From an uncultured Methanobrevibacter sp. (GTDB taxonomy: Archaea > Methanobacteriota > Methanobacteria > Methanobacteriales > Methanobacteriaceae), in assembly GCA_902771225.1 (NCBI GenBank), contig CACXWH010000006.1:1-43901 (forward strand): a DNA stretch of 43,901 bases, written 5' to 3'. Within the stretch, counting starts at the first letter, position 1, and each line of letters starts with the position of its first letter. Positions 32,318 to 43,901 of the stretch are shown here, piece by piece. The notes beneath the pieces are model-generated. The model was not told the origin of the DNA, searched no databases, and was given only the letters and a program-made list of their open reading frames with translations. Position numbers and translations under genes: made by a program.

Positions 32318-33475
32318 ATGTTTACTATAACTAATGGAATTATTTTAAAAGGTTTGCATCTCAATCCGATTAAAGCTAATATAACTATTGATGATGGAAT
32401 TATTACCGATATTTCTAAAGATTCAAAAGAGGGTAAAATAATTGATGTTGATGGTGCTGTTGTAGCTCCAAGTTTTTTAAATGGCCATACTCATATTGGA
32501 GACTCAATTATTAAGGATGAAGGTTATAGTTTATCTTTGGGAGAAATGGTCAAACCGCCTAATGGGGTTAAACATCGTGCTTTAGCATCTGCTGAAGATG
32601 AGGATATTATCGAATCAATGAAATCTTCCATGTGGGATATGCTTGAGTCAGGAACTACGCATTTTATTGATTATAGGGAAGGTGGAATTAAAGGAGTTAA
32701 ACTTCTTAAGAAAGCCTCAAAAGATATTCCAATCACGCCAATAATCCTTGGTCGTGATGATAGTTTTTATGGTGATAATCCGGATTTATCAAAAGTGAAA
32801 TCACAGATTAAAAAACTTTTAAAAGTGGCTGATGGTATTGCTCCCAGCGGTTTTGGTGAAATCACGGATGAAGTTGCTAATTTAATCTCTGAAGAATGTA
32901 AAAAGGAAGGAAAAATTTCATCCATTCATGTTGCAGAATCTGAATCCACACAACTGGAGTCTTTAGAAAAATTTGGCAGGACAGAAATCGAACGGGGAGT
33001 AAATTGTGATTTTAATCAGTTGGTTCATTGTACTAATCCTAAAAATAATGATTTAAATTTAATTAAAAATTCAAATTCAAATATTGTCGTTTGTCCGAGA
33101 GCTAATGCAACATTAAATGTTGGTATTGTTCCATTAAATGAAATGTTAAAATTAGGCATCAAGCCAATTTTAGGAACGGATAATTTAATGCTTAATAATC
33201 CGAACATGTTTAGAGAATTGGAATTTACACTTAAAATAATGTCTGTTAAGTATAAAAGTTATTTAAATCCCTGCAAACTTCTACAAATGGCAACAACAAA
33301 TGGATGTCAGTTTAATTTTAATAAATCTTATATTGAAATCGGACAATTTGCCGAGTTAAATATCATAAAACATTTTTCCAAAAATTATTATTTATCTCTA
33401 ATAAACCGTTCAGAAACAAAAAATATATTATATACTATTAATAGAAAGTATACTAATAGTATATTGAACATATAG
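32318..33475 (+). CDS. Amidohydrolase (Atz/Trz or nucleoside-deaminase-like)
   Basis: A 385-residue metal-dependent amidohydrolase with the full ligand set: H57 and H59 (NGHTH), H204 with E207 (IHVAES), H237 (LVHCTN) and D288 (LGTDN). The HVAE and GTDN patterns are those of the chlorohydrolase / S-adenosylhomocysteine-deaminase group, which act on amino groups of purine or pyrimidine derivatives. The substrate is not determined. TATA-like TTTAAATATT lies about 26-34 bases before the ATG, so the transcript may be leaderless. Confidence 0.82.
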
Positions 33476-33501
33476 AATCATATATTATTGGAGATTTAAA
33501 T

Positions 33502-33924
33502 ATGTACAAGAGGATTTTAGTCCCAACAGACGGGTCTGAATTTGCAAGAAAAGCAGAATTACATGCTTTATTCTTAGCTAAGGTTAGTGGTGCTGAGATT
33601 ATTGCATTAAGCGTATCTGAAAATCAATTTATTACTGGAATTTCAGTAACTGATGAAGTTGAGCAATTAAATCTGATATTAAAAGATCGCTGTGAAGAAG
33701 ATCTTAAAGAATTTGAAGAAATGAATGAAGATGGGGTAAAGATATCCTCTATTATTAGAGAAGGCTCTCCTGCAAATGTTATTTTGGATGTAGCCGTGGA
33801 AGAGGACATAGATTTAATTGTAATTGGAAGTTCAGGTAAATCTGGTTTTGATAGATTTATTCTGGGTAGTGTCAGTGATAAAGTTGTTAACGCTGCTAAA
33901 TGTCCAGTATTAGTTGTACATTAA
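33502..33924 (+). CDS. Universal stress protein (UspA family)
   Basis: A 140-residue single-domain Usp with the N-terminal strand [13 protein letters not shown] and the ATP-binding loop [15 protein letters not shown] (GxxGx9GS) near the C-terminus. This places it among ATP-binding UspA proteins. TTGGAGATT precedes the ATG, a plausible ribosome site. Its exact stress role is unknown. It precedes the CBS-domain gene by about 45 bases, and both are likely energy- or nucleotide-sensing proteins. Confidence 0.92.
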
Positions 33925-33969
33925 ATTATTATAATTTTTTCATGTGAAATAGAACATAAGGTGTTTTTA

Positions 33970-34809
33970 ATGTTAGTAAAAAGAGTAATGTCTAAAAAAG
34001 TTGTTAGTGTTTCTGTTCCTGGTAGCAGAGAAAAGGTTTTAGACTTAATGAGAAAAGAAAATAAAGCAGTACTTCCTGTTATTAAAGAAGATAATAATAA
34101 ATTAGTTGGAGTTGTTACTCGTTCTGATTTAATTAATAATCCTGATGAAGAACAAATAGCAATGTTGATGAGTAGAAATCTTATTGTAGCAAGTCCTGAT
34201 GATGATGTTAAAGATGCTGCTCGTATAATGATTGAAAATGATGTAAGAAGAGTTCCTGTAGTTAATGATGATGGGGAATTAGTTGGAATTATCACTTCAT
34301 TTGATTTAGTATCTCAAGCTTTAACTAAAATTGAAATTGATGATGCTGTTGAAGATTATATGATAACTACAGTCCCTACTACTTGGGAAAAAACTCCTTT
34401 AAATGTTGCTTTTGAATCAATGAAACAATTTGGCCTCAAATCTATTTTAGCATTAGATGATAATGCTCAACTGTCCGGAATTTTAACTGAAACAGATTTC
34501 ATTGCAGAAAGTGAAATTATTTCTGAAAGAAGTGAACACAGCTCAACCGTTGGTACTGAAGGAGATAAATGGTCTTGGGACAGTACTTCTGTTTTATACA
34601 TTGAAAAAAATCATTTAAAATTCACTGATAAGGTTGTAAGTGATGTTGCTATAGGTAATGTTGAAGTAGCTAATTCAAAAACTAAAGTTTCTGATTGTGC
34701 TAAAAAAATGAAAACATTAAATATTGAACAAATCCCAGTTATAGGTGTTGAAGGAGATTTAGTGGGTATTGTTAGAGCAAGTGACTTAATCAAAGCTTTA
34801 GTCGAATAA
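33970..34809 (+). CDS. Protein of four CBS domains
   Basis: About 279 residues made of four consecutive CBS motifs (two Bateman modules), with repeating endings such as LVGVVTRSDLI, LVGIITSFDLV, LSGILTETDFI and LVGIVRASDLIKALVE. CBS pairs bind AMP, ATP or SAM and regulate partner proteins; there is no catalytic domain here. The start is the ATG with AAGGTG upstream; a GTG three codons earlier is possible but would place the site inside the coding region. It is followed 10 bases later by the unknown 154-residue protein, a likely operon partner. Confidence 0.9.
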   Translation: MLVKRVMSKKVVSVSVPGSREKVLDLMRKENKAVLPVIKEDNNKLVGVVTRSDLINNPDEEQIAMLMSRNLIVASPDDDVKDAARIMIENDVRRVPVVNDDGELVGIITSFDLVSQALTKIEIDDAVEDYMITTVPTTWEKTPLNVAFESMKQFGLKSILALDDNAQLSGILTETDFIAESEIISERSEHSSTVGTEGDKWSWDSTSVLYIEKNHLKFTDKVVSDVAIGNVEVANSKTKVSDCAKKMKTLNIEQIPVIGVEGDLVGIVRASDLIKALVE

Positions 34810-34819
34810 TCGTGATAAG

Positions 34820-35284
34820 ATGGTTGTTAGTCCAGTTTTAGTCATAAAGATTGTTGATGACAGTTCTGTGGGGGTTAGGGCTCGTTGGAGAGATGATTTT
34901 GTTGAACATCATATTGTTTTGAATTCTGTTCTTGCATATTGGTGGGCTAATGAATTATCTCCTGGCGTTAAATTCTTAGAACTACTGGAATCTGTTATCA
35001 AAAGAACTATTAATGAACTAACGCCTCATAAAACTCTAAAATTAAAATATGCCGTTAAAGCTGATGATGTTTTGGAAAAAGCATCAGATATGGAGATAAA
35101 TCTAATTGAAGTTGAAGCTGATGATATAGGATTTAAAATTGATGGCAAAACTTTAGCTTTAAACGGCCTTAGAAAATCATCTGATGTTGAAGATGAAAAA
35201 GTTCCATTTAATGAAACTTTTGATAAGGTTATTGAAACTCCAGATATTGTTTTAAAAAAATATAGGCAAATGAAGGATAAATAA
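34820..35284 (+). CDS. Methanogen hypothetical protein next to the CBS gene
   Basis: A 154-residue soluble protein. Visible segments are VLVIKIVDDSSVGVRARWRD (beta-hairpin-like), LNSVLAYWWANELSPGVKFLE (helical) and a C-terminal acidic region. A GTGAT site precedes the ATG, 10 bases after the CBS gene. I do not assign a family with confidence; it may belong to one of the methanogen-only DUFs. It could be the protein regulated by the CBS partner, which is inference from adjacency. Confidence 0.7.
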   Translation: MVVSPVLVIKIVDDSSVGVRARWRDDFVEHHIVLNSVLAYWWANELSPGVKFLELLESVIKRTINELTPHKTLKLKYAVKADDVLEKASDMEINLIEVEADDIGFKIDGKTLALNGLRKSSDVEDEKVPFNETFDKVIETPDIVLKKYRQMKDK

Positions 35285-35285
35285 G

Positions 35286-36296
35286 TTATATATTTCTTCT
35301 TATCTTGTGCAGAATATCCATAAACTCAAATAATGCCTCATCATAATCTTTAAAATTATGTCCTTCAATTAAACCATTTTTGTTTATGGCTATTTTTTCT
35401 AATTCTATTTTTTCCGAATTTTCAATTTGAATTTTTTTTCCCAACTCTTTTTTTGTTTTTTCAAGGTTTATTGTGAATGGCAGTTGGTATTGAAATTGAT
35501 TATTTTTATAGTCTATGGTGATGTCCTCATCGTCATCAAGAGCAGATAAATTTAGGCAAACTTTTTTATATCCTATTGATTTTAATTGATCATTAATTTC
35601 ATTAAATGAATCAATATTAATTATTTTGGAAAATTCATTTACTTCACATACACCAAGTTCATTAAAATCCCTAACTTTGACCAGTTCACATTCGCTTATT
35701 TTTGAAAGAATGTTTTCACTTTTTTTAATCTTTTCAATTTTTTCTTTGGTGATATGTGTATCGGTAGGAATTCTTGTTGCAAGACATGTAGTTGATTTTG
35801 AATATGGGATATTGTTTTTATTCAAATATTCATGAATCTCTTTTGAAGTCAATTTTGCCTCAATTAATGGTGTTTTGAAATTCATTTTATATGTAATTAA
35901 AATGCCCGGTCTGTTGATAACCAAATCACTAATATTGTTGCCGTCACAAATAAAATCAAAATCATTGGCTAGCGCATAATCCTTAATTTTATTATACATT
36001 AAATTTCTGCAGGAATAACATCTGCTTGGCAGGTTTTTTAAAAATTCTTCATCTTCATAAAAATTCAAGTCGATAACATGGTGTTTTATATTAAATTTTC
36101 TAGCCCGGTCTCGAGTATTTTTAATAAAGTTGTCTGGAAACAACTGATTATCAATAGTTATTGCTAAAACATCACTGCTTACCTTTGATGCAAGATAAGC
36201 TATTAAAGTACTGTCAGCACCTCCTGAAAATCCAACAGCAACTTTTTTGTCTTTTAAAATATTCTTAACAATTTCAATTTTGTCTTCCAGATTCAT
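35286..36296 (-). CDS. LarE-like PP-loop ATP-dependent sulfurtransferase
   Basis: A 336-residue N-type ATP pyrophosphatase. The PP-loop SGGADST is at 24-30 and the LarE signature DGNNISD at 118-124 (usually DGTNxDD). Cys are at 93 and 96 (RCYSCR) and at 171 (TTCLATRIP). C171 aligns with the sacrificial sulfur-donor Cys of LarE; the three together match the LarE subgroup that carries a 4Fe-4S cluster and may act catalytically. It is about 60 residues longer than usual at the C-terminus (about 275-336). No larA, larB or larC is in the window. Its ATG overlaps the tfuA stop by 4 bases (ATGA), so it is the last gene of the ycaO-tfuA operon, suggesting a sulfur-supply role in thioamidation. Confidence 0.83.
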   Translation of the reverse strand: MNLEDKIEIVKNILKDKKVAVGFSGGADSTLIAYLASKVSSDVLAITIDNQLFPDNFIKNTRDRARKFNIKHHVIDLNFYEDEEFLKNLPSRCYSCRNLMYNKIKDYALANDFDFICDGNNISDLVINRPGILITYKMNFKTPLIEAKLTSKEIHEYLNKNNIPYSKSTTCLATRIPTDTHITKEKIEKIKKSENILSKISECELVKVRDFNELGVCEVNEFSKIINIDSFNEINDQLKSIGYKKVCLNLSALDDDEDITIDYKNNQFQYQLPFTINLEKTKKELGKKIQIENSEKIELEKIAINKNGLIEGHNFKDYDEALFEFMDILHKIRRNI

Positions 36297-36946
36297 TTTA
36301 CAATACCTGCAATATATTTTATTAATTCCTTCGCATCTTCTTTTTTAATGTCTGGTGAAGTTCGAATAAAGTTAATGAGTTTACTTTTCTTCTCATCATC
36401 CAAATTTGATTCATTTAATGTTTTTGAATAATTCCGTTTAGGATAAAATGTGGATTTTGCAATTTGAATCAGTTCATCCTTTTCATCGGAGGTAATGATA
36501 TTTTCACTAACTGCATTTGTAAAAACATAGTCCATATTAATTAGAGGTTCGGATAAGCTTTCTAAGGTTTCACTATCAAGCATCACTGCTACATCATCAT
36601 CTGATGCAACTTTTCCTGTGGCATACTGTTCATATACATAACCGATGCCATGCATTCCCAATGTGTCAAGTTCTGATGCTCTTAAAGCACCCATGCTTGA
36701 TGAGCCAACAACAGTAACTCCCTTATCAATAACATTCAGAATCTCTTTATGGCCTACAGAAGAATTCTGGTGGAATACTCCGTCAATTATGCCTATAATG
36801 TCGGGATTTTCTTTAATGTCATGTCCCAAATCTCCTCTTTTAATAGGTTTTTTATAGATTACTTCAACATCATCGTGTGAATCAAACAGTTCTCTTGCTT
36901 CATCAAAGGGAAGGGATAATCCTGTATAAATTATAACTTTAACCAT
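36293..36946 (-). CDS. tfuA: TfuA-family partner of YcaO
   Basis: A 217-residue TfuA-like protein, known from trifolitoxin clusters and, in methanogens, required with YcaO for conversion of a conserved glycine of methyl-coenzyme M reductase alpha (McrA) to thioglycine. The family core is clear: IGIIDGVFHQNSSVGHKEIL, VVGSSSMGALRASEL, LGMHGIG and DDDVAVM. The usual GAASMGALRAAEL appears here as GSSSMGALRASEL. It starts 4 bases after the ycaO stop and overlaps the LarE-like gene by 4 bases. Confidence 0.93.
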   Translation of the reverse strand: MVKVIIYTGLSLPFDEARELFDSHDDVEVIYKKPIKRGDLGHDIKENPDIIGIIDGVFHQNSSVGHKEILNVIDKGVTVVGSSSMGALRASELDTLGMHGIGYVYEQYATGKVASDDDVAVMLDSETLESLSEPLINMDYVFTNAVSENIITSDEKDELIQIAKSTFYPKRNYSKTLNESNLDDEKKSKLINFIRTSPDIKKEDAKELIKYIAGIVK

Positions 36947-36950
36947 AAAA

Positions 36951-38156
36951 TCATACTCTTAAAAATCTGTATCCCGCACGGCTTTGATCAATTGAATATA
37001 GTTCCATTGTCGGTATAATGACTCTTACAACATTTACATTAAGCTCAGGACGTGTTAAATCGCAATACAGTACATGTTCAATTTCATTTTTTTTCAATTC
37101 ATCCAAAACAATATTTATGTCTTCGGTTATTGAATCGGTACTTTTATTTTCAATATCGCTTAAAGCTATTTTGTTTTCTTCATCTTCAAAGTAATGATTA
37201 TTGATACGTTTCATACGTTCATAACCTGCAGTTCTTGCAAAATCTGCCCTAACGGTATCTTCACGAGCTCCATGAATTTGTGTCGCTCTACTTTGAGCCA
37301 CTTCGGTTAATGCTCTTAAAACAGCAACTTCAGGATCAAGGTGTGTCCCCATGCCTAATGTTAAAAGCCCAGCATCTTTTAGTAATGTATCATCTGCTGA
37401 TGCGGCTATTGTTGGAACTTTAATGTCTGCAGTCAAATCCATTAGCTTAATATTGATTTCATTATCGCTAAATTTCTTAAGTGCATCATTGACAATGCTA
37501 CTTTCAATGCTTTTCAGGTCAATTTGTGTGGAATTCTTATGGGTTAACTCAAAAATGCTCCATGCATCCCTTTCAATGACTTCAAAAATTCCATGCAGTA
37601 TTGCTTCTTCTAAGCTATTTCCAGAAGCAAGGCCGTTTGTGTTTGATTTAAACAGATTTTGGCATGAATTGTCTTGTAAAACATAAGGGTGATAAATTGC
37701 ATTGGATGGAATGTAATAGTCTTTTTTACTAATTAAATCATGACAGATATTCCATTCAAGATTTATAGTTTCGATATTTTCTTTTTTAAAGTCTTTAGGT
37801 AAGTTCAAGGATTCAATATCGATGATATTGCCTTTACTAGAAATTTCTGAAATAGTTCCAGTAATTGTATTTTCATCCTGTTTTTCAGCAGAATACCTCT
37901 CAAACCCTTCCATCATGGCAGATGCTTTAGCATGTTCGACACTTATTCCCTTACCTCCATAAATACTAATGGCTCCTTCCTGTGACGTTGGTCTTATTGC
38001 AGAAAAAATCGGAAGTCCAATTCTATCCAAATGTGTGATTTCGGTAATGCGCGTAATACCTGCAATTTTACATTTGTCCTCATTATTTTCAATAGTCTGG
38101 CTTGGAGGTATAATTCTGTGGGTTCCCTTAAAATATTTAATCTCTTTTGATGTCAT
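36951..38156 (-). CDS. ycaO: YcaO-family cyclodehydratase/thioamidase
   Basis: A 401-residue YcaO that uses ATP to activate a backbone amide by phosphorylation. With TfuA, methanogen YcaO makes the McrA thioglycine. Nucleotide- and Mg-binding segments are visible: SVEHAKASAMMEGFERYSAE (72-91), SGNSLEEAILHGIFEVIERD (178-197; E192 and E195) and GMGTHLDPEVAVLRALTEVA with QSR (268-290). It lacks a Pro-rich tail, so it is unlike azoline-forming enzymes of antibiotic clusters, and no precursor peptide gene is seen nearby. Its ATG overlaps the upstream protease stop by 4 bases. Confidence 0.94.
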   Translation of the reverse strand: MTSKEIKYFKGTHRIIPPSQTIENNEDKCKIAGITRITEITHLDRIGLPIFSAIRPTSQEGAISIYGGKGISVEHAKASAMMEGFERYSAEKQDENTITGTISEISSKGNIIDIESLNLPKDFKKENIETINLEWNICHDLISKKDYYIPSNAIYHPYVLQDNSCQNLFKSNTNGLASGNSLEEAILHGIFEVIERDAWSIFELTHKNSTQIDLKSIESSIVNDALKKFSDNEINIKLMDLTADIKVPTIAASADDTLLKDAGLLTLGMGTHLDPEVAVLRALTEVAQSRATQIHGAREDTVRADFARTAGYERMKRINNHYFEDEENKIALSDIENKSTDSITEDINIVLDELKKNEIEHVLYCDLTRPELNVNVVRVIIPTMELYSIDQSRAGYRFLRV

Positions 38157-38800
38157 TTTATACCTATAATCATTCTAATTATGTTTTCAGCACCCATCGT
38201 CATGGATAAATAAGTCATGAATCCTGCAATAGCAATAATGACAATCCATACTAAAATGTTCCATCTCAATACTTTAGATCCATCTAAATTCCAAATTGGT
38301 ATTAAATTGAAAACAGCAAGATAACTGTTTGTGGAAAAACCAAGGCAACATACAATAAATATGAACTGCATTGTTGCATCATGATGTGCAGGTCCATAAA
38401 TGGCAGCACCAATGAGTATAAATACTAATGCAAGAACAATATTAACTGCAGGCCCGGCAATTGAGATTATTCCATTTGTTTTATCATCCAAATTACTTCC
38501 GGCATAGGTGTAAACTGCACCGGGAGCCGCAAATACAAAACCGAAAAATGAAGATATTAAAGCAAAAATCAATCCGGCAGGCCATAATTTAAATTCAGCC
38601 CAATAACCATAATGCATTGAAGCAAATTTATGCCCCAATTCGTGTAATATGAAACCTAAGCCTAATCCAATCATTACTACTGGAAAAATGCTTTTAAGCA
38701 TAGCAACATTTCGGCCAGAATATAAGATTGAAAAACTTAATGAGATAAAAATAAATGCAATAATCAAATCTCTTAATTCGCTTGTTGTTATTTTAAACAT
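38153..38800 (-). CDS. M50 (site-2-protease-like) membrane metallopeptidase
   Basis: A 215-residue polytopic membrane protein with five to six helices. The zinc motif HELGH is at 53-57 and the third ligand D173 lies in NLIPIWNLDGSKVL, the M50 signature. No PDZ or CBS domain is present, so it is a minimal intramembrane protease core. It is the first gene of the protease-ycaO-tfuA-larE-like operon and overlaps ycaO by 4 bases. A link between this protease and McrA modification is not known to me. No Shine-Dalgarno site is seen, and the TATA box lies about 18-30 bases upstream, so the transcript is probably leaderless. Confidence 0.9.
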   Translation of the reverse strand: MFKITTSELRDLIIAFIFISLSFSILYSGRNVAMLKSIFPVVMIGLGLGFILHELGHKFASMHYGYWAEFKLWPAGLIFALISSFFGFVFAAPGAVYTYAGSNLDDKTNGIISIAGPAVNIVLALVFILIGAAIYGPAHHDATMQFIFIVCCLGFSTNSYLAVFNLIPIWNLDGSKVLRWNILVWIVIIAIAGFMTYLSMTMGAENIIRMIIGIK

Positions 38801-38814: not shown

Positions 38815-38834
38815 TAATTCTATATATAAAAGTT
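38815..38834. promoter_or_regulatory. Shared divergent TATA promoter
   Basis: The sequence CTATATATAAAAG and its complement CTTTTATATATAG give a TATA box on both strands centred near 38825. The M50 ATG lies about 25 bases to the left and the M24 ATG about 28 bases to the right, both at the distance expected for leaderless transcripts. Confidence 0.55.
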
Positions 38835-40112: not shown

Positions 40113-43100
40113 ATGAAATATAATAAATATTTTATGGTTGTTTTATCAATCTTTTTGATTTTATTTGTATTTATTGGCTCAGCAAGTGCTGCTGATGCTA
40201 ATGGTACAGATATTTTATCTGCAAATGATAATAATGAAATCATAAGTACTACAATTGATAATAATGAAATTTTAACTACGGGAAATGATGTGAGCAATTA
40301 CTCAGAGCTCTCTAGAGAAATTGCTGTTGGAGGACAAATAGAACTGCAACATGATTATTATAAATACGATTCCGGCAATACTATTAATATACCAAATGAC
40401 TGTTTTATTGATGGTAAAGGTGCAGTAATAGATATGGCAGGTTCATCAATTAGAGCTTTTATTATAAATGGTAGTAATGTAATAATTAATAATTTAACTA
40501 TTAAAAATGTATATTCTGAGGATGAGGGCGGTGCATTCTACTCTGAAATTGGAGGCATTGTAACTAATTGTAATTTTATAAATAACTCTGCAGGATTTAC
40601 GGGCGGTGCAATCTCCTTCATAAACGTGACTGGTAGTGTGGCTAATTGTAATTTTATAAATAACTCTGCAGCACAGGGTAGTGCAGTCTGCTTCTGGGAT
40701 GTGGCTGGCAATGTGACCAATTGTACTTTCACTGATAACAATGCAGCTTCAGCTGGTGCACTTTACTTATGTGGCGGTATTGTGTCTGATTGTACTTTCT
40801 CTGGCAACTCTAATGATCTTGGCAGGGGTGGTGCAATCGCATCCTTCACAAAGGTTTCTAATATAGTTAATTGTACTTTCACTGATAACTCTGGAGCTCA
40901 AGGTGGTGCAATTGCTTTCTATGATGCGGATTGTAATGTGACTGGTTGTACTTTTATTGGTAATGCTGCAATAATTGGCACTGACGGTGGTGCTATTTGG
41001 ACAGGTGGCGGCAACGTGACTAATTGTACTTTCATTGATAACTCTGGAGCTCAAGGTGGTGCAATTAGTTTTTATGGTTATTGTATTGTGACTGATTGTA
41101 CTTTTCTTAATAACACTGCACGTGGTCAGGGTAGTCAATTTGCTGACGGTGGTGCAATTCACTTAGCTGACGGTATTGTGACTAATTGTAATTTCATCAA
41201 CAATTCTGGAGAAATTTGGGGTGGTGCTATTAGTTCTGCTCATGTTACTGTGAATAATTGTACTTTCACCGGCAACACTATAACTGGTGATACTAAGAAC
41301 ATGGGTGGTCATGCGATTTACTCAAATACTGGTGGTAGTGTGACTAATTGTGTTTTTGTTGATAACTCTGCAGAATCTATCAAATATACTATTTATTCTG
41401 CTGGGGCTCTATACGACAGTCTGGATAATAATTGGTGGGGTTCAAACGATCCTGATTGGGATGAATTAATCAGTTATGACCAAATCCCATCAATTTATGC
41501 TGTTTTTAAAGCATCTGCTGAGCCTGGTGAAATTGGTGCTGGTGGAAAATCTGATATTATTACCAAATTTATTTGGAATGGTACTAATACTGATGCAACT
41601 AATTCATTACCTAAAAGACATGTTAATTTATCAAGTAAAGGTAATTTAACAGAAACATTTGGTGATGTTGGCTTAATTTCAGCATTTTATGCTAATGATG
41701 AAGATACATATGAAGTAAAAGCTGTTGTTGATAATGAAAAACGTACAGTGGAAGTGAAAGTGAGTGGTTCTGCTAATTCTACTGACATATTTGTTAATGC
41801 TACTTCTTTAAACTTAACTGTTGGTGAAACCGGTTCTATTAATGCTACATTAAATCCGCTGGAAGCAGGTATTCTTATAGTCGATTATGATAAAAAAATT
41901 ATTCGCATTGATTTAGATTCTGATGGAAAATGGATTGTTACTGGTCTAGCTGAAGGAAATACAAATATCACGTTCTCATTCCCGGGCAGTGGACAATTTA
42001 CTCCTGCTGAGAGTAAAACTGTTAATGTTACTGTTAGTTTGAATGATGCTCGTGTCGCTGTTAACAATAACACTTTGGATTTAGAAATTGGTGATACTTT
42101 TGTTATTAACGCTACTACTATGCCTGAAGGATTGAATGTAACTTATGTGGGTGATGATTCTGGTGTTTACAAGGTTGATGAGAATGGTGTTGTTACTGCA
42201 TTAACGAATGGTACTGGTTCAATCCTTGTTAAAGTTGGTGGTGACGGTGTTTATGCTGAAAACTCAACTACTGTTACTGTTACTGTAAGTAAAGTTCCTA
42301 CTGAAATCAATATTACTAATGAAACTGTTGATTTAAAAGCTAATGGCGAAGTTCCAACCGGTGCTACTTTAACCCCTGCTGATGCGGGTAATTTAACCTA
42401 CACTTCAAGCAATTCTGGTGTTGCTATTGTTGAAAACGGTAAGATTAAAGGTATTAGGCAAGGTGAGGCAAATATTACTGTTTCATTTGCGGGAGATGAT
42501 AAGTATATCGCCGCTGAGAATAAGACTATCGCTGTTAGTGTTAGTTTGGCTGATGCCTGTGTCACAGTTAACAATGATACTTTGGATTTAAAAGTTGGTG
42601 ATACTTTTGTTATTAACGCTACTACTTCACCTGAAGGATTGGATGTAACTTATGTGCAGGATGAGTCTGGTGTTTACAGTGTTGATGAGAATGGTGTTGT
42701 TACTGCATTAACGAATGGTACTGGTTCAATTCTTGTTAAAGTTGGTGGTGATGGTGTTTATGCTGAAAATTCAACTACTGTTACTGTTACTGTTAGTTTG
42801 AAGGATGCTAGTGTTGTTGCTGATCGTGACTCTTTGGATTTGTTAGTTGGTGAAACCGGCAAATTCTATGCTAGTACTGATCCTGAAGATTTGGATATTA
42901 CTGTTTCTTCCAGTAATGAATCTGTGGCAACTGTTAAACTGGTCAATCGTGTTCCTACAGTTACTGCTGTTGGTGAAGGTTCTGCAGTAATTACACTCAC
43001 CATTAATGAGAAGGATTATGTGAAAAATTCAACTACTGTAAATGTTAAAGTAGTTAAAATACCTACTGAAATTCTTATTCAAAATGATACTTTGGATATG

Positions 43101-43901
43101 ATTGTTGGTGATATTGTTGATCCGGTTGTCAGTTTGATGCCTTCTGATGCAGGTAATATGTCTTTCATTGTTAGTGATGTTAGTGTTATTCTTGTAAATG
43201 GTCATGGTTTTGTTAAAGCTGTGGGTGAAGGTAATGCTACTGTTACTGTCAGATTTGGCGGTAATGACAAATACTTGCCGTCCAATGCCACTATTACTGT
43301 AACTGTAAGGGATGCATTAATTGTTACGGCTCTTGATGTAGTCAAATATTATGGTGGCCCTGAAAGATTTGTTGTTAATGTAACTGATGGTGAAGGTAAT
43401 CCCTTGTCAAATAAATCCGTAACTATTGTCATTAATAAAGTTACATACAATAGAACTACTGATGAAAATGTTGATAATAAAACTGTTAACTCTGTTGTTA
43501 CTGTTTTAACTACTGTAAACGGTACTGATGTTGTGAAAATGTATAAAAACGACACTCAATATTATGCAACATTTATTGACAGTGAAGGCAAATACTTGGC
43601 TGACGGAACAACTGTAAAATTCAACATCAACGGTGTAATGTATGAGCGTAAAGTCTCCGGCGGTAAAGGTCAGGCAAAATTAAACATTAACTTACCTGCA
43701 GGTAAATATGTAATCACTGCAATGAATCCAAAAACTGGAGAAAAGGAATCAAATAATATTGTGGTTTTAGCAACAATTGTTGAAAACAGAGACATTACCA
43801 AATATTACAAAAACGCCACCCAATACACTGTTAAAGTGTTAGGTGCTGACGGCAATCCTGTTGGTGCGGGTAAAACTGTTACTTTCAACATCAATGGTGT
43901 A
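40113..43901 (+). CDS. Adhesin-like surface protein (beta-helix plus Ig-like repeats), runs off the window
   Basis: The frame is open from the ATG at 40113 to the last base, 1263 codons. A signal peptide is clear (KYNKYFMVVLSIFLILFVF, cleavage after GSASA). Residues about 120-430 form a right-handed beta-helix of about 11 repeats with the pattern N-C-x-F-x-x-N plus GGAI, like polymorphic outer-membrane repeats; most carry a Cys. A spacer with NNWWGS follows. From about residue 555 come bacterial Ig-like (BIG_2-type) domains, then from about 1138 two copies of an 88-residue Ig-like repeat (YYKNATQYTV..., FNINGV). This is the layout of Methanobrevibacter adhesin-like proteins, thought to bind partners or host surfaces. 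The C-terminal anchor is outside the window. Confidence 0.9.
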   Translation, partial: MKYNKYFMVVLSIFLILFVFIGSASAADANGTDILSANDNNEIISTTIDNNEILTTGNDVSNYSELSREIAVGGQIELQHDYYKYDSGNTINIPNDCFIDGKGAVIDMAGSSIRAFIINGSNVIINNLTIKNVYSEDEGGAFYSEIGGIVTNCNFINNSAGFTGGAISFINVTGSVANCNFINNSAAQGSAVCFWDVAGNVTNCTFTDNNAASAGALYLCGGIVSDCTFSGNSNDLGRGGAIASFTKVSNIVNCTFTDNSGAQGGAIAFYDADCNVTGCTFIGNAAIIGTDGGAIWTGGGNVTNCTFIDNSGAQGGAISFYGYCIVTDCTFLNNTARGQGSQFADGGAIHLADGIVTNCNFINNSGEIWGGAISSAHVTVNNCTFTGNTITGDTKNMGGHAIYSNTGGSVTNCVFVDNSAESIKYTIYSAGALYDSLDNNWWGSNDPDWDELISYDQIPSIYAVFKASAEPGEIGAGGKSDIITKFIWNGTNTDATNSLPKRHVNLSSKGNLTETFGDVGLISAFYANDEDTYEVKAVVDNEKRTVEVKVSGSANSTDIFVNATSLNLTVGETGSINATLNPLEAGILIVDYDKKIIRIDLDSDGKWIVTGLAEGNTNITFSFPGSGQFTPAESKTVNVTVSLNDARVAVNNNTLDLEIGDTFVINATTMPEGLNVTYVGDDSGVYKVDENGVVTALTNGTGSILVKVGGDGVYAENSTTVTVTVSKVPTEINITNETVDLKANGEVPTGATLTPADAGNLTYTSSNSGVAIVENGKIKGIRQGEANITVSFAGDDKYIAAENKTIAVSVSLADACVTVNNDTLDLKVGDTFVINATTSPEGLDVTYVQDESGVYSVDENGVVTALTNGTGSILVKVGGDGVYAENSTTVTVTVSLKDASVVADRDSLDLLVGETGKFYASTDPEDLDITVSSSNESVATVKLVNRVPTVTAVGEGSAVITLTINEKDYVKNSTTVNVKVVKIPTEILIQNDTLDMIVGDIVDPVVSLMPSDAGNMSFIVSDVSVILVNGHGFVKAVGEGNATVTVRFGGNDKYLPSNATITVTVRDALIVTALDVVKYYGGPERFVVNVTDGEGNPLSNKSVTIVINKVTYNRTTDENVDNKTVNSVVTVLTTVNGTDVVKMYKNDTQYYATFIDSEGKYLADGTTVKFNINGVMYERKVSGGKGQAKLNINLPAGKYVITAMNPKTGEKESNNIVVLATIVENRDITKYYKNATQYTVKVLGADGNPVGAGKTVTFNINGV
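40540..41380 (+). repeat. Beta-helix coding repeats in the adhesin gene
   Basis: About eleven units encode N/D-C-x-F-x-x-N segments with a following GGAI or similar. At the DNA level phrases such as GTGACTAATTGTACTTTCA and AACTCTGGAGCTCAAGGTGG recur with little change, so the units can recombine. Confidence 0.75.
42033..42797 (+). repeat. 507-base repeat of Ig-like domains in the adhesin gene
   Basis: Bases 42033-42290 and 42540-42797 are nearly identical over about 258 bases, offset by 507 bases (169 codons, in frame). Shared phrases include GATACTTTTGTTATTAACGC and GTTACTGCATTAACGAATGG. The repeat unit holds two Ig-like domains, only one of which is strongly conserved between copies. Confidence 0.75.

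Follow-up and report, generated by a model that had tools for sequence, protein, structure and literature searches.

A LarE-like protein with a TBP-like domain is linked to McrA thioamidation genes in Methanobacteriales

A 43,901-nucleotide stretch of DNA from an uncultured Methanobrevibacter sp. (assembly GCA_902771225.1, contig CACXWH010000006.1, positions 1 to 43,901; hereafter the window) carries a minus-strand cluster in which ycaO and tfuA, the genes of McrA-glycine thioamidation, lie between a gene for an M50 membrane metalloprotease and one for a LarE-like PP-loop sulfurtransferase. Here we describe a recurrent link in Methanobacteriales between the McrA thioamidation genes and a LarE of the [4Fe-4S] type that bears a TBP-like C-terminal domain. 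We propose that the cluster represents the form that the McrA thioamidation locus takes in Methanobacteriales and, on balance and with modest confidence, favor a role for the LarE-like protein in mobilizing sulfur for the thioamidation of McrA by YcaO and TfuA.

Results

Organization of the four-gene cluster

The cluster begins with the M50 (site-2-type) protease gene (38153..38800, minus strand, ATG start and TGA stop, 215 residues) and continues on the same strand with ycaO, also known as methanogenesis marker 1 (36951..38156, ATG/TGA, 401 residues), tfuA (36293..36946, ATG/TGA, 217 residues), and the larE-like gene (35286..36296, ATG/TAA, 336 residues). The M50 gene and ycaO overlap by 4 bases, a gap of 4 bases separates ycaO from tfuA, and tfuA overlaps larE by 4 bases. 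The open reading frame coordinates agree exactly with this layout as given in a preliminary description of the DNA. The four genes may well be co-transcribed. A TATA-like element, TTTATATATA (38821..38830, minus strand), picked out by reading 5′ of the M50 start codon and by its likeness to the archaeal promoter consensus, is a candidate promoter of the cluster.

The Pfam matches to the window proteins score 39.2 bits for Peptidase_M50 (cut-off 27.2), 299 for YcaO, and 152.3 for TfuA. YcaO also passes the NCBIfam equivalog model for McrA thioamidation, TIGR03266 (483.7 bits, cut-off 365), as TfuA passes its counterpart NF033432 (285.5 bits, cut-off 235.2), and the preliminary assignment of this pair to McrA thioamidation is thereby backed by curated models. 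A solved structure, 6xp8, is available for a relative of TfuA. Because both models are specific to McrA thioamidation, a peptide precursor is not required. A ribosomally synthesized and post-translationally modified peptide (RiPP) as the product is not favored, given these McrA-specific scores and the single YcaO match in the source genome (G000, 2.36 Mb in 122 contigs). The fourth protein passes the LarE equivalog TIGR00268 (180.6 bits, cut-off 150). Scans of the window with Rfam at gathering scores and for tRNAs returned no match.

The cluster recurs across the order

The preliminary description had proposed a survey of tfuA neighborhoods in Methanobacteriales. Among 149 sampled genomes of the order, TfuA is matched in 141, LarE above the cut-off in 136, and a relative of the M50 protease in 143. 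The tfuA neighborhoods of 140 genomes together with the window give 141 loci, a set that takes in loci cut by contig ends and in which distances are measured between open frames rather than start codons. All four genes follow one another in steps of at most 500 nt at 53 of these loci, spread over 12 genera and three families. In pairs, ycaO lies ≤500 nt upstream of tfuA at 115 of the 141 loci and the M50 gene ≤500 nt upstream of ycaO at 96. The larE gene is found at the tfuA locus in 90 cases (≤300 nt away in 83), elsewhere in the genome in 43, and not at all in 8; ten genomes have it in both places. In all 18 genera that have a tfuA locus, at least one genome has larE at that locus; within the genus of the window (g1), this holds for 27 of 63 genomes. 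The larE-like and M50 genes thus recur, and the gene order is not unique to the source genome. Since the arrangement recurs across the sampled order, the four-gene neighborhood is not a product of chance.

The eight genomes with tfuA in which LarE was not found comprise four of genus g3 (G038, G052, G123, and G141; 99, 95, 77, and 72% complete), three of genus g1 (G092, G116, and G117; 83–84% complete), and G012, whose contig ends inside tfuA. Some loci appear damaged: G017 and G126 have tfuA broken into two frames, and in G120 the same is true of ycaO (L174, L173, and L103), through decay or sequencing error. Genome G107 (98% complete) has no match to YcaO, TfuA, LarE, or M50 and retains LarB and LarC, reflecting either real loss or a missing contig.

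Where the cluster is broken up, larE remains with one or the other thioamidation gene. In genus g3, ycaO is absent from the fetched 5-kb neighborhood of tfuA at all 20 loci (some of these loci are cut), yet larE adjoins tfuA in 10 of the 20. The reverse is seen in G149, a genome of another order, whose single contig contains no TfuA-domain match and has M50, ycaO, and larE in a row. In g3, the genes that precede tfuA encode ComA, a CofE-like protein, TFE alpha, and an HD-domain protein (L047, L058, L064, L072, and others).

A [4Fe-4S]-type LarE core with an additional domain

We aligned 109 LarE-like sequences, 89 encoded beside tfuA and 20 elsewhere; frames below 250 bits, including a shortened copy in G070, were dropped. 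The PP-loop (SGGADS in the window protein) is invariant at S24, G26, D28, and S29 in 109 of 109 sequences. Equally invariant are C93, C96, and C171, a CxxC motif plus a distant cysteine that matches the pattern of [4Fe-4S]-type LarE. In T. maritima LarE, three cysteines hold a [4Fe-4S] cluster and transfer of a non-core sulfide has been proposed (PMC9283937, partial text). From this pattern, the window protein probably binds a [4Fe-4S] cluster as well.

The predicted structure of the LarE-like protein has a predicted local distance difference test score (pLDDT) of 93.5. Residues 1–254 superimpose on mmLarE-[4Fe-4S] (8cnz) with a Z score of 28.7 and a root-mean-square deviation (rmsd) of 2.8 over 251 aligned residues. 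We take “mm” to stand for Methanococcus maripaludis, in line with the available text of PMC8961635. Scanning the genome contigs with mmLarE as the query revealed no relative. The PP-loop, the CxxC-C cysteines, and the core fold are thus shared with the [4Fe-4S] LarE proteins of T. maritima (PMC9283937, partial text) and mmLarE (8cnz and 8cp4). Unlike them, the cluster protein occurs without a detected LarA, is encoded beside ycaO and tfuA, and carries an extra domain. The NcsA-type tRNA thiolase 6scy is likewise a PP-loop ATPase by fold and has an iron-sulfur cluster, but it fits the window protein less well (Z 16.0, rmsd 4.1, 191 aligned) than LarE does, and the window protein passes the LarE model cut-off.

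The extra domain spans residues 253–336 (35286..35540, minus strand) and was assigned by profile and fold comparison; the 8cnz chain, at 271 residues, lacks such a C-terminal extension. A family profile of the domain matches M. jannaschii TBP with an E value of 1.1e-7, and a model of the domain from L250 (pLDDT 86.9) superimposes on TBP with a Z score of 12.4 and an rmsd of 2.5 over 90 aligned residues. The profile recognizes 108 of the 109 aligned sequences, among them the window protein at 1.7e-22 (the profile includes that sequence); in the G149 LarE, the profile finds no such domain. Two relatives miss the gathering score of the Pfam TBP family PF00352 (19.5 and 15.6 against 22.9 bits), and the window’s own domain gave no match in the Pfam TBP search. 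Because it falls below the Pfam score, we call the domain TBP-like only.

Relocated larE copies and loci outside the order

Fifty-eight larE copies lie away from tfuA. Downstream of at least 39 of them, in the same orientation, lies a gene for a ThiF-family E1, at most 270 nt from the model match in 38 cases and 971 nt away in the other. The count of 39 is a lower bound because the copies were checked only against E1 places among the matches listed; G100 provides a further relocated larE with a ThiF-family E1. We fetched 21 of the 58 copies and used 20 in the neighbor, residue, and tree analyses. In the tree, the 16 fetched g1 copies fall inside the g1 clade, together with one g3 copy (G011), which is consistent with derivation of the relocated g1 genes from the operon copy. 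The relocated label requires 4 changes for the 20 copies and therefore implies few relocation events.

For comparison, we examined the best 80 of 501 named YcaO loci, of which 49 were classed as outside and 31 as inside Methanobacteriales, a class that for some loci rests on the YcaO score. These loci are not an independent sample, as they partly come from the same species as the 149-genome set; no ycaO frame was obtained for L265, and six TfuA-free Methanobacteriales records were set aside. The larE gene is present in 24 of the 31 loci inside the order, while no LarE match above 38 bits occurs among the 49 outside it. Matches of 30–38 bits in L223, L242, L245, and L224 score far below the family and were rejected; the L223 protein belongs to Pfam ATP_bind_3. 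Among the 49, 35 have tfuA, and 10 of these 35 carry a gene of the ThiF and/or ThiS family downstream. One of the ThiS-family carriers is confirmed as ThiS by Pfam, and the others were assigned by clustering.

The M50 protease and flanking genes

The zinc-site motifs HExxH and NxxP..DG are kept in all 96 homologous M50 frames above 200 bits. The M50 gene is usually beside ycaO and is part of the ycaO neighborhood. Among the matches listed for genus g3, the two genes are neighbors by coordinates in seven genomes (G016, G020, G021, G051, G067, G094, and G129) and not in seven others (G011, G029, G030, G038, G052, G089, and G141); in genus g4, M50 lies beside ycaO in 0 of 17. A different M50-type gene sits directly upstream of ycaO at six loci outside Methanobacteriales (L236, L248, L255, L258, L260, and L284), and its product has a PDZ domain in the two tested.

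Tail-to-tail with larE, positions 34820–35284 (plus strand) encode a 154-residue protein with no Pfam or NCBIfam match. Its relatives account for 106 frames in the 141 tfuA loci, and one also lies beside larE in G149. Next to it, 32318–34806 (plus strand) holds genes for an amidohydrolase, a universal stress protein, and a four-CBS protein, a conserved block that adjoins the cluster. At the other end of the window, a frame of 1263 residues with a signal-like start (40113–43901, plus strand) runs past the window end.

Discussion

In the pathway that we favor, YcaO would activate the glycine backbone of McrA with ATP and TfuA would assist, as known from Methanosarcina. The three LarE cysteines would ligate a [4Fe-4S] cluster with a hydrosulfide on its open iron, and the PP-loop would adenylate a carboxylate; the resulting thiocarboxylate or the hydrosulfide would then feed TfuA and YcaO. 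The TBP-like domain might, speculatively, be a docking module. Both the acceptor of the sulfur and its transfer to YcaO/TfuA are here inferred.

Related loci offer a frame for this proposal. In other methanogens, YcaO and TfuA of the same families are adjacent and, by curated model, have the same target, and genes of sulfur metabolism, named as thiF, sufS, moaD, moaE, and moeB, lie nearby (PMC5589413, partial text). The available passages of that paper on these loci name neither LarE nor M50, whereas here larE follows tfuA and M50 precedes ycaO. A TfuA supplied with sulfur by a partner protein, a ThiS-type thiocarboxylate carrier, is on record (Liu 2021, via the partial text of PMC13063428), whereas the linked gene here is LarE-like. 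Outside high-sulfide settings, the usual route for sulfur is described as one through ThiS-type carriers with TfuA (PMC13063428, 2026, partial text). LarE may fill the operon place held by ThiF and/or ThiS in some other methanogens, or may work with ThiF. The whole words “LarE” and “YcaO” occur together in no paper of the open literature searched, with subscription papers mostly outside that search, and literature matches listed for tfuA, Methanobrevibacter, and site-2 protease include no paper on this operon.

The preliminary description had already cast LarE as the sulfur supplier. This idea gains from the linkage to ycaO and tfuA, the invariant [4Fe-4S]-type cysteines, the failure to find LarA, and relocation beside ThiF. 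Several observations weigh against it. The four g3 genomes named above have tfuA, and three of them also ycaO, without LarE, and nine Methanococci YcaO loci lack both tfuA and larE within 6 kb. The LarE cut-off is also passed in Synechococcus, T. maritima, and Haloferax, controls that lack this YcaO, and YcaO works in vitro with an external source of sulfide (PMC7581889, partial text). Because relocation events were few, the counts of ThiF-adjacent larE are not independent. To these must be added the near-universal presence of larB and larC, on which the strongest rival rests.

According to that rival, which we regard as rather unlikely, the protein is an ordinary LarE that acts with LarB and LarC to make a nickel-pincer-type nucleotide for an enzyme other than LarA, and its adjacency to ycaO stems from co-regulation or from a common requirement in the maturation of methyl-coenzyme M reductase (MCR). 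LarB exceeds the cut-off in 141 of the 149 genomes and LarC in 148, and the rival therefore stays live. The preliminary remark that no lar genes were in view holds for the window but not for the genome, which contains, besides its one LarE, one LarC (contig C7) and a LarB (contig C59) above the cut-offs. Equivalents of the LarE phosphate-site residues, as placed by alignment, are kept as T174, K/R207, and R209. A relocated larE stands head to head with larC in G058, and a distance of 11–12 kb separates larC and ycaO in nine genomes of genus g3 (G016, G020, G021, G029, G030, G038, G052, G079, and G102). About 15% of the genomes analyzed elsewhere have larB, larC, and larE without larA, and other nickel-pincer proteins have been suggested for them (PMC11796402, partial text). 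Yet neither the 141 tfuA loci nor the 20 relocated-larE loci yield a relative of LarB or LarC in a single-sequence search at an E value of 1e-10, and G038, G052, G123, and G141 have LarB and LarC without LarE. Moreover, where ycaO and tfuA are separated, larE remains with one or the other, and the protein carries the extra TBP-like domain. LarE may have a double role.

Service to LarA itself, as a lactate racemase helper, was considered and rejected. The LarA search gave 0 matches in the source genome; Lar_N matches occur in 8 of 149 genomes and cover about 51 of 204 positions, and the four that exceed the cut-off, all in genus g3, are DUF362/ferredoxin proteins. As a separate observation, G023, G058, and the source genome (L288, L293, and L295) have, downstream of larC and in the same orientation, a PP-loop gene with an SGGLD motif that by eye we take to be QueC-like.

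A second rival, quite improbable in our judgment, casts LarE as a general source of sulfur for ThiF-activated ThiS/MoaD carriers that serve molybdopterin or tungstopterin, thiamine, and tRNA, with thioamidation as just one user through TfuA. The position of relocated larE just upstream of the ThiF/MoeB-family E1 fits this idea, as does an opposite-strand FdhD gene that follows in 11 of the 20 fetched loci. Against it, only one of the 141 tfuA loci has a ThiF-family gene (L115), and G002, G071, and G078, with larE at the tfuA locus, lack a match at 1e-60 to the E1 that accompanies relocated larE. That larE and M50 share no pathway with ycaO and tfuA and are held there by slow gene-order change is very unlikely: unrelated opposite-strand genes are also conserved in the 141 loci (CBS in 121 frames, universal stress protein in 90, and amidohydrolase in 85), but the genes of the window overlap on one strand, and larE keeps to tfuA in half of the g3 genomes with ycaO elsewhere and to ycaO where tfuA is gone.

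A more specific form of the sulfur-supply proposal is put forward tentatively, and we think it unlikely to hold: LarE with its TBP-like domain would form a thiocarboxylate, either on a carrier protein or on a LarB-derived nucleotide, which TfuA would hydrolyze to feed YcaO. In some genomes with larB, larC, and larE and without larA, LarE would then serve protein thioamidation instead of, or besides, the nickel-pincer cofactor.

Thioglycine is a modification found widely in MCR, the enzyme responsible for biological methane, and these archaea are common in guts and rumens. Should LarE supply the sulfur, a LarE-type donor would constitute a second sulfur route besides ThiS-type carriers, and LarE would have a use in the absence of LarA, a gap noted in the available text of PMC11796402.

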